Positions 27,106-30,073 of a stretch of 34,068 nucleotides of DNA are shown in pieces; the stretch's first letter is position 1; each line of letters starts with the position of its first letter. A program made the position numbers and the translations under genes. The stretch lies in the NCBI GenBank assembly GCA_947304135.1, contig CAMYZZ010000008.1, positions 1 to 34,068 of the forward strand, written 5' to 3'. The notes beneath the pieces are model-generated. The model saw only the letters and a list, made by a program, of their open reading frames with translations, did no database searches and was not told the origin of the DNA. This stretch comes from an uncultured Candidatus Saccharibacteria bacterium. GTDB taxonomy: Bacteria > Patescibacteriota > Saccharimonadia > Saccharimonadales > Saccharimonadaceae.

Positions 27106-28905
27106 TTAGCGAACAATACAAACCACATAGTTCGAGGCCGTTCGATTGCCGGTGTAGAAGAAGTAGGCGGCCGAGCTATAGACTTCGAGGCGCCAGGCGC
27201 CATCATCGCCCGAAGTAGACGACCAATAGTTGCCGTACCAGCCCGTAGTATTGTATATAGTACCGTCACTACCATAGGCGTTAATTAGAGATTGAAATTC
27301 AGATTGGGATGGAACGCCAGTATCGGAAGGACAAAGGGTCGCGGCGTTATCGAAGGTTGCGGTTCCTTGGCTGGTCTTAGTGTAGCAAGCTGTGGTGGTG
27401 CCAGTGGAGTTGGTTTTGAGCTTGATATATTGTATGCTGCCATAATAGAATGTGCCGCCAGTGCTGGCATTATTGCACATCTGCGCCAACGTCAACGCTG
27501 CTCCTGTAAAGCTCAGCGTGCCGCCACTCGTGGTACTGTTGTTTGTCACGGTAACAGTTTGTTGGCCGGTGTAGCTGGTGCCGGTGCCGTATCCGGAGCA
27601 GGTGTAGCCAGATGGGCAGGAGACTGCGCTTAGGTAGTATCCAGAGGACGGGGTAACGGTAACCGTATTGCTCCCACCATATGGCACGGAAATCGAATTT
27701 GCTCCAGAAGTTGTATGAGTGTTAGAAACCGATACAGTAAACGTCCTAGCCGTACCAACAAAACCCAACGTTCCGCCGCCTGCTGTATTGTTATTTGTAA
27801 CAGTCACGGTTTGCTGTCCAGTCGCACTAGTTCCAGTAGAGTATCCCGTACAAGTATACCCAGATGGACAAGAAACAGAAGAAAGATAATGTCCCGTATT
27901 TGGCGTAACGGTAACCGTATTACTCCCACCATAAGGCACAGAGATTGAAGCTGAGCCAGAGGAAGTATTAGTGTTGGAGATTGTGATCGTATAGCTAGCA
28001 AGTTCCCACTCCGCCGTGAGTGTGGCGGAGCCAGTGTAATCGATGTCGCCTTGGACGGTGATTGTATCGCCTGGTTGGTAGGTAGAGGCTCCGTCAGAAT
28101 AGCCGGTGAAGTTGTACCCTGTGCGAGTTGGGGCGGCTGATGGAATAGTGAATGTATGCGAAGCAGAAACCTCGGAGGCAGTCATAGTTTCTGGAAGGCC
28201 AGATACACCTGTACCACCCGGCTCAAAATATAGCGAGTAATCGGTTGGGACGGGGTTGCCTACGGCAGAGAAAGTGAGTTGGTTCTTGTAAACACCAGAT
28301 GGTTTTTCTACGTTGACGTTCATACCAATGTAGACTGGAGTCTTAGTTCCGGCGGTTGGGGTGTCATGGGAACCTATCTGGGTTTGGACAGAGTTAGCTG
28401 GGACTGGGCTGTAGGTAGCGTCATCCAAGCTGTAGGCCCACTTGTTGGCATTGGTAGTGCCTGGAGCAGCAGTAGAGAGAGCGGATTTGGTAGTATCTGC
28501 TGCTACGGTTGGGATAGTGTAGCTAGTATTGGTTTGGTTAACTAGGTCTGTAGTATAGGTACTGGTAGAAGGGTTTTGGTAGCTAGAGTTCATGTAGAGC
28601 TTGTAGCCGGTCTTGTTAGCTGTACTTACTTCTACTTTGAAGTTATCTGTGACAAAGGTACCGGTTGGGGCGGCGGTGGCGGAGAGGTCGAGTTCGGTTA
28701 TTTCTGCGGTGGCGGCGCTGTTCAGGATGCGGATGGCGACGCCGTTGACGAGGTTGACGTTAACGTCTACGTTTTCTTCGGAAATGGTGGAGGCAGAGGG
28801 AATAAATAGGGAAAGTGCAGCCAAAAGACATAAAGGCACCCAAAGTACGAACGCCTTATGCGTCAATGGTTTATGTGTTTTGGTGCGCGACCTAAATATT
28901 CTCAT
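27106..28905 (-). CDS. Secreted surface protein with InlB B-like repeat, two ~80-aa tandem repeats and a C-terminal FISUMP/C-type-lectin-like domain
   Basis: Start moved from 28989 to ATG 28905-28903 with AAGGAGG SD (MRIFRSRTKTHKPLTHKAFVLWVPLCLLAALSLF); YSLYFEPGGTG...TYQPGDTITV...LTAEWE; repeats ISVPYGGSNTVTVTP...; C-term LCPSDTGVPSQSEFQSLINAYGS...WYGNYWSST...VVCIVR. Confidence 0.8.
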   Translation of the reverse strand: MRIFRSRTKTHKPLTHKAFVLWVPLCLLAALSLFIPSASTISEENVDVNVNLVNGVAIRILNSAATAEITELDLSATAAPTGTFVTDNFKVEVSTANKTGYKLYMNSSYQNPSTSTYTTDLVNQTNTSYTIPTVAADTTKSALSTAAPGTTNANKWAYSLDDATYSPVPANSVQTQIGSHDTPTAGTKTPVYIGMNVNVEKPSGVYKNQLTFSAVGNPVPTDYSLYFEPGGTGVSGLPETMTASEVSASHTFTIPSAAPTRTGYNFTGYSDGASTYQPGDTITVQGDIDYTGSATLTAEWELASYTITISNTNTSSGSASISVPYGGSNTVTVTPNTGHYLSSVSCPSGYTCTGYSTGTSATGQQTVTVTNNNTAGGGTLGFVGTARTFTVSVSNTHTTSGANSISVPYGGSNTVTVTPSSGYYLSAVSCPSGYTCSGYGTGTSYTGQQTVTVTNNSTTSGGTLSFTGAALTLAQMCNNASTGGTFYYGSIQYIKLKTNSTGTTTACYTKTSQGTATFDNAATLCPSDTGVPSQSEFQSLINAYGSDGTIYNTTGWYGNYWSSTSGDDGAWRLEVYSSAAYFFYTGNRTASNYVVCIVR

Positions 28906-28941
28906 TTGCCTCCTTCTATCTAGGTGCAGTCGCAAATAAAA

Positions 28942-29088
28942 TAGCGACCACATGTGTGTTCGCCAGAACATACCCAGAAGCCATTCCAAAAGAACGCACT
29001 AGGACAACATATGGTCGCTACTTTACGTTCTTTTTTCTAAAATGGCTTCCCAAACTAAAAAATTTCTGGGTACAAATTGTTCTGGCAA
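28942..29088 (-). promoter_or_regulatory. Structured 5' leader with segmented long hairpin and H-type pseudoknot potential
   Basis: Minus-strand RNA: GCCAGAACA/UGUUCUGGC, UACCCA/UGGGUA, GAAGCCAUU/AAUGGCUUC, AAAAGAACG/CGUUCUUUU, plus loop UAGCGACCAUAU pairing with downstream AUGUGGUCGCUA. Confidence 0.75.
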
Positions 29089-29092
29089 CCCC

Positions 29093-29101
29093 ATTATAAC
29101 A
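29093..29101 (-). promoter_or_regulatory. Extended -10 promoter TGTTATAAT of the minus-strand surface protein
   Basis: Minus-strand TGTTATAATGGGG; predicted TSS about 29086, the first base of the leader hairpin. Confidence 0.7.
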
Positions 29102-29161: not shown

Positions 29162-30073
29162 ATGAGTAACCGTGTAATGATTGTCGGAACAGGAAACGTA
29201 GGCGCCAGCCTAGGTTTTTGTTTAGTAAATCAACGCACTGCTATTTCCGAGCTAATTTTGACAGATATTAATGCTGACGACGCCGAGGGCGAAGCCATGG
29301 ATCTTCGCGACACACTCGCCGTTTCTCCTGCCTACATGAAAATCTGCTCCGGCACGTATCAAGATGCCAAGGATTGCGATATTATCGTCATCACCGCCGG
29401 CGCCCCACAAAAACCCGGCGAAACCCGCATGGACCTACTCAAGAAAAATTCCGAGATACTAAAAGATATGATTTCCCAGATCATGGCCGCAGGGTTTGAC
29501 GGCATTATTATCATGGTGACAAATCCAATGGACATCATGACTTATCTCGCGATGCAATATTCTGGGCTTCCACCAGAAAAAGTCATCGGCTCTGGTACCA
29601 TTCTAGATTCCGCCAGGCTTCGTTTTAAAATTTCCGAGGAACTCGGTGTCTCGCCAAAATCTGTCCACGCTTTCCAAGTTGGCGAACATGGCGACACAGA
29701 GTTTGCCCTTTGGTCTGCTGCAACTCTTGGTGGCTTGCCACTAGAAAAGTTGCTCAAAAAAGCAAGGCGCCAAGAAATAGAAGATTACGCCCGCAACGAA
29801 GCTTACGAAATCATCAGCAAAAAAGGCGCCACATATTACGGTATCGGCGCCTGCGTTGCCAAACTTATCAACTGTATCTTGGGAGACGAGCGCCGCATCT
29901 TGCCGATCTCGAGCTACGATAGCTATTCTGACGTATATTATGGTTTTCCAGCTATTGTCGGCCGCGAAGGGGTCATCAAAAAACTCGATCTAGACCTTCC
30001 AGAAAAAGAAGGCATCGCCCTTCAAAAATCCATCAATGCCTTAAAATCCGCTATCCGCGCAGTTCAAAAATAA
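29162..30073 (+). CDS. L-lactate/malate dehydrogenase
   Basis: VMIVGTGNVGASLGF, DCDIIVITAGAPQKPGETRMDLL, VTNPMD, GSGTILDSARLRF, VGEHGDTEF. Confidence 0.92.
   Translation: MSNRVMIVGTGNVGASLGFCLVNQRTAISELILTDINADDAEGEAMDLRDTLAVSPAYMKICSGTYQDAKDCDIIVITAGAPQKPGETRMDLLKKNSEILKDMISQIMAAGFDGIIIMVTNPMDIMTYLAMQYSGLPPEKVIGSGTILDSARLRFKISEELGVSPKSVHAFQVGEHGDTEFALWSAATLGGLPLEKLLKKARRQEIEDYARNEAYEIISKKGATYYGIGACVAKLINCILGDERRILPISSYDSYSDVYYGFPAIVGREGVIKKLDLDLPEKEGIALQKSINALKSAIRAVQK

Follow-up and report, generated by a model that had tools for sequence, protein, structure and literature searches.

The question raised by this locus is what kind of RNA occupies positions 28906-29101, on the minus strand of the 34,068-nt stretch of DNA analysed here (hereafter, the window), and what it might do for the gene that follows it. 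That gene (27106-28905, minus strand) encodes a 599-aa secreted or surface protein that matched no Pfam or NCBIfam model, and that has 14 further matching places in its own genome, which is 711 kb in size. By eye, the last part of this protein resembles repeat and FISUMP-like domains, and the divergent gene at 29162-30073, about 60 bp from the leader promoter, resembles an NAD-dependent lactate/malate dehydrogenase. A first-pass annotation had proposed that the region is a 5' leader folded into an H-type pseudoknot, and our examination of the minus-strand sequence located the promoter, the stem blocks, the loop, and both pseudoknot segments exactly where it had put them. An extended -10 promoter, TGTTATAAT (29093-29101, hexamer 29093-29098), recognised from the sequence and from the comparison of 85 copies of the element, is followed by a predicted transcription start at about 29086, a G that is also the first base of stem A. 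In the predicted fold, the bulged 5' strand of this stem (29026-29086, with paired blocks at 29078-29086, 29064-29072, 29039-29049, and 29026-29034) faces a continuous 3' strand (28962-28996) across an apical loop at 28997-29025. The loop holds segment B, AAGUAGCGACCAUAUGU (29007-29023, core GCGACCAUAUGU at 29007-29018), identified through covariation as the 5' side of the pseudoknot. Downstream, in order, are segment T, GCGAACAC (28956-28963), a 3' tail of stem A that could form a terminator-like hairpin with the 3' part of B'; segment B' itself, ACAUGUGGUCGCUA (28942-28955), the 3' side of the pseudoknot and also a partner of T and of C; the U-rich run UAUUUU directly 3' of B' (28938-28943), recognised through its conservation in the 85 copies; segment C, GCGACUGCA (28925-28933), an alternative downstream partner of B' that would leave the U-run in the loop of the resulting hairpin; and the Shine-Dalgarno sequence AAGGAGG (28909-28915). 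All these features are on the minus strand. The leader as a whole folds at -66.9 kcal/mol, compared to -45.6 ± 4.1 kcal/mol for dinucleotide-shuffled sequences (z = -5.2, 0 of 200 shuffles).

Based on sequence comparison, this leader is one copy of a previously uncatalogued family of folded RNAs of Saccharibacteria, and we are nearly certain that the element, its pseudoknot, and the family exist. Surface-gene paralogues in the same genome carry leaders of the same design and of different sequence, and it was by comparing these leaders, then searching with a loose pattern, and then with a covariance model (R1, built from 18 leaders) that the family was detected. R1 found 75 copies in 44 of the 174 genomes of the same genus and more in other genera of the same family; together, the pattern and covariance searches on which our counts rest yielded at least 85 copies in Saccharibacteria, located before accessory genes and spanning 8 further genera of the family, and 85 of these copies form our working set. 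Their common layout is an extended -10 element, a hairpin A at the predicted start, B in its apical loop, B', the U-run, and a Shine-Dalgarno sequence. In a sample of 380 genomes of the phylum, R1 matched only this genome and one other from the same family, which argues for a low false-positive rate and a narrow range. In the public collection the carriers go under the name Candidatus Saccharibacteria, Candidatus Nanosyncoccus alces among them, and the listed isolates with a source name are mostly from sheep, goat, cattle, or rumen.

A BLASTN search with the leader found no full relatives, because the stem sequences diverge. No riboswitch class had been recognised in the first pass, and that assessment stands, as the Rfam 15 covariance models returned no match at gathering score anywhere in the window, and when four loci holding diverse copies were searched by E-value, the only hits were tRNA elsewhere and chance matches off the leader. 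No pattern match was obtained in viral contigs. A hit in Olleya (L234) was discarded as an ordinary terminator hairpin devoid of stem A, and cmsearch hits on the opposite strand were set aside as the palindromic shadow of true copies. A genuine copy (L235, 6403-6539) was found on a contig labelled Candidatus Nomurabacteria, which may reflect transfer between phyla or a mis-binned contig. Separately, the leader of one paralogue of the surface gene (G000:C1, near 14034, minus strand; L108) is structured and G+C-rich, but its layout differs and it did not match the model.

The first-pass annotation had looked to covariation among homologous leaders as the measure of the proposed fold, and the stem sequences do vary widely among copies with pairing retained. 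Among the 18 leaders, 99.2% of pair cells were formed, and 53 were changed on both sides compared to 16.2 ± 3.5 in shuffles. Over 75 aligned copies, with the 9 basal pairs of helix A and the 12 pairs of B:B' considered, 96.9% of cells were formed and 211 were altered on both sides, compared to 62 ± 10 in shuffles; because the sequences are related, these shuffle counts are not probabilities, yet controls in which the partner was slid by 1-3 columns keep that relatedness and formed only 34-42% of pairs. The B:B' helix is paired in 98.4% of cells in the same 75 copies, with both-side changes in 8 of its 12 pairs, indicating that the non-nested helix is real and that the H-type pseudoknot called at this locus holds across both sets of leaders. 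The variable upper part of stem A is maintained as well, with a median of -21.4 kcal/mol when each copy is folded with its own half and -8.8 kcal/mol with the halves of other copies (-34.0 and -9.7 kcal/mol, respectively, for the copy at 28906-29101). By our own estimate, the length of stem A does not allow coaxial stacking in an H-type pseudoknot whose linker, between the 3' strand of A and B', measures 3-8 nt; bending, through the bulges on one strand, or the packing of B:B' beside A would solve this problem. The median energies of the possible helices over the 85 copies (-36.7 kcal/mol for A, -22.0 for B:B', -10.3 for C, and -8.6 for T, with no pseudoknot penalty) are plausible, in relation to one another, for helices that compete.

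Comparison of the copies also supports the predicted start near 29086. Of the 85 copies, 84 have a TATAAT-like hexamer whose end lies 6-7 nt upstream of the G that opens the stem, and 70 have the TGn extension; given this fixed spacing, the transcript is expected to begin with stem A. From the U-run to the start codon the median distance is 33 nt, and it is 35 nt or less in 53 of 85 copies, which in most cases leaves no room for a second promoter, so that expression of the gene requires read-through. The promoters of three paralogues of the surface gene in other contigs of the same genome (L037:1385-1394, plus strand; L039:2561-2570, minus; L041:2483-2491, minus; contigs C3, C5, and C10, respectively) have 9-10 G residues just before the -10 box, and two of them have TTGACA with a 19-nt spacer. 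Judged from their sequence, these promoters look phase-variable by slipped-strand changes, a form of control different from the leader RNA.

Although the first-pass annotation had the structure right, it had overlooked the U-run after B', the two additional partners of B', and the existence of a multi-copy family. U occupies positions 4, 5, and 6 of the run in 85, 85, and 82 of the 85 copies, respectively, and position 7 is not conserved. Because U is kept at these three positions even in copies whose facing base in B is not a purine and cannot pair with it (12 of 12, 22 of 22, and 28 of 30 copies, respectively), the run appears to be selected for itself. The hairpin between T and B' forms 6-7 of its 7 pairs in 78 of 85 copies (95.3% of cells paired, with weak covariation). 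L184 and L186 have lost T, and several other copies have mismatches in it, with B:B' retained; a simple scheme in which T terminates transcription and B prevents it is therefore not universal. On the other side of the U-run, the sequence ahead of the start codon shows strong complementarity to B' and to no other segment of the leader, with a z of about 10 relative to shuffled downstream sequence, compared to at most about 2 for the other segments, all values that relatedness inflates. C has often changed together with B' (as in L107, L100, and L083), and is absent or weak in some copies, such as L094. L089, L090, L100, and L188 carry a second copy of the RNA's 5'-terminal sequence (for example, GCUAAACUAU) just before and over the start codon, which gives the 3' strand of stem A a possible further partner at the translation start. 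Attenuation through a leader peptide was considered and rejected, as no start codon is conserved in the alignment; short ORFs preceded by a Shine-Dalgarno sequence occur in 61 of 85 leaders by a loose test.

The association with a surface protein, which had been part of the original description of this leader, proved incidental, since other accessory genes lie downstream of most copies. In the downstream proteins that were scanned, Pfam identified N6 and N4 DNA methylases, an EcoRI-type methyltransferase, a GIY-YIG protein, a pilin of type IV secretion, and a class V aminotransferase; many of the others are secreted or membrane proteins, or belong to unnamed multigene families; no recombinase or transposase family was found in this set. 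No single pathway is shared by these genes, which argues against a metabolite riboswitch dedicated to one pathway, and for either a general or trans-acting signal or a constitutive role. Leaders and genes, in addition, have not always stayed together. In two pairs of loci of this genome (L001/L107 and L105/L106), the first 90 nt of the genes are identical and the leaders are no more alike than random copies. Conversely, the leaders of L152, L157, and L166, from different species, are 96-99% identical, with flanks that show little or no identity above background, and the two unrelated methyltransferases of L089 and L090 have leaders that are 86% identical (L100 also precedes a DNA methyltransferase gene). 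Given these two patterns, the leader looks like a portable cassette, and because stem A is free to vary, recent exchange would best explain the 96-99% identity.

What, then, could such a leader do? That it acts in cis, as had been suggested in the first pass, is very probable, as in virtually every copy the element sits between a promoter and a Shine-Dalgarno sequence. To us it looks like a built-in on/off transcription switch, and a conditional transcription attenuator is its most likely function, a reading to which we would give about an even chance. Between promoter and gene, in fact, a G+C-rich helix is followed by a U-run (B:B' in 85 copies, T:B' in most), and B, T, and C share the strand B' in mutually exclusive helices. 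Transcription would begin at the first base of hairpin A, which would fold during synthesis and present B in its apical loop. As B' emerges, it would pair either with B, to form the pseudoknot, or with T, to form a short local hairpin; because both arrangements put a G+C-rich helix directly before the U-run, some transcripts would be expected to stop there. Those that extend past the U-run would make C, which could capture B' and reset the fold before the Shine-Dalgarno sequence; C, being transcribed only after the U-run, cannot itself prevent termination. Termination, the identity of the upstream helix that causes or prevents it, and the role of C are all inferred. Because the downstream genes are unrelated, the signal is probably a general physiological or a trans-acting one.

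Known systems offer partial parallels, and we propose that the element works like a pseudoknot-controlled attenuator, with no claim of membership in a named family. In the HMP-PP (thiS motif) riboswitch, whose aptamer is embedded in a terminator (PMC6478431), a pseudoknot fold and a terminator stem likewise compete for the strand adjacent to the U-run. That riboswitch, however, is a small metabolite sensor associated with thiamin genes, whereas the long stem of freely varying sequence and the unrelated downstream genes of our leader argue against a metabolite aptamer; it was rejected as an identification, with no Rfam match and with surface proteins, methyltransferases, a T4SS pilin, and others downstream. 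The attenuators with intrinsic terminators surveyed in 5' leaders (PMC2965389) share with this leader the series of promoter, folded leader, G+C-rich helix, U-run, and gene; what sets this leader apart is that its strongest helix adjacent to the U-run is formed by pseudoknot pairing with an apical loop, and that a local hairpin is present in addition. We recognised neither a conserved leader peptide nor a T-box or protein-binding repeat in it.

A possible alternative, which we consider rather unlikely, is that the element acts post-transcriptionally, with the 5'-terminal hairpin or pseudoknot protecting the mRNA or tuning ribosome access through the choice between B:B' and B':C, and the U-run serving as a loop or processing site. 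A stem at the first nucleotide of an RNA is the classic arrangement of a 5'-end stabiliser, as in the stabilising stem-loop at the 5' terminus of mRNAs of the E. coli ompA type, and the predicted position of stem A in 84 of 85 copies would conform to it, at the present locus at the very 5' end of the mRNA for a surface protein. An mRNA-stabilising role, as suggested in the first pass, would fit this arrangement; it leaves unexplained, however, the U-run, the two alternative partners of B', and the strict conservation of B:B'. For protection alone a hairpin suffices, and neither pseudoknot nor U-run is needed. Unlike the ompA type, moreover, the leader adds a conserved pseudoknot, the U-run, and C, and is dispersed over many unrelated genes. 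Control of translation draws support from the position of C, 3' of the U-run and ahead of the Shine-Dalgarno sequence, together with its complementarity to B', and from the four copies in which the 5' sequence recurs at the start codon, where the 3' strand of stem A could pair. Sequestration of the Shine-Dalgarno sequence by C as a general mechanism was nonetheless rejected, because that sequence lies outside the B':C hairpin, at a variable distance from C.

It is improbable that the element is instead a small-RNA gene that acts in trans, with the downstream gene expressed by leakage; its own promoter, compact fold, and terminator-like end would suit such a gene, but with few exceptions the element immediately precedes a gene that has a Shine-Dalgarno sequence, a separate promoter for that gene has no room in most copies, and C is complementary to B' despite lying outside the putative small RNA. 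Very improbable, in our view, is an element acting at the DNA level, such as a recombination site or a miniature mobile element, in which folding of the inverted repeats would take place in single-stranded DNA and the RNA fold would be secondary. Near-identical leaders between unrelated flanks in different species, and unrelated leaders before identical gene starts, speak for it, but the fixed spacing to the extended -10 element, the asymmetry of the U-run, and the placement before a Shine-Dalgarno sequence indicate an RNA, and recombinases and transposases are missing from the downstream proteins scanned. Integron attC sites have the core sequences RYYYAAC and GTTRRRY at the base of their hairpin. 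As read from the aligned copies, the base of hairpin A (GCUAAAC/GUUUAGC, GCGAAAC/GUUUCGC, GCCAGAAC/GUUCUGGC, and others) breaks this core at positions 3-4, and attC was rejected.

Saccharibacteria are tiny, host-attached bacteria, and very little is known about gene regulation in these and other candidate-phyla bacteria; our full-text literature search for structured or small regulatory RNAs in them found nothing relevant. The leader provides an RNA family supported by covariation, with dozens of natural variants, each of which is a ready-made compensatory mutant, and the list of downstream genes points to accessory and surface functions that are likely relevant to host attachment and defence. 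Tentatively, and with less confidence than in attenuation as such, we suggest that these leaders could represent a new class of regulatory RNA, restricted to a single family of episymbiotic Saccharibacteria, in which the pseudoknot helix is itself the terminator stem. As a portable cassette of promoter and switch, it would pass from one accessory gene to another, unrelated one, and would bring surface proteins, DNA methyltransferases, and secretion genes under the control of a common signal. Should attenuation be the true mechanism, this would be a regulatory RNA able to move as a unit from gene to gene, with a terminator built from a pseudoknot, and the polarity and steric limits of pseudoknot terminators would become directly testable.
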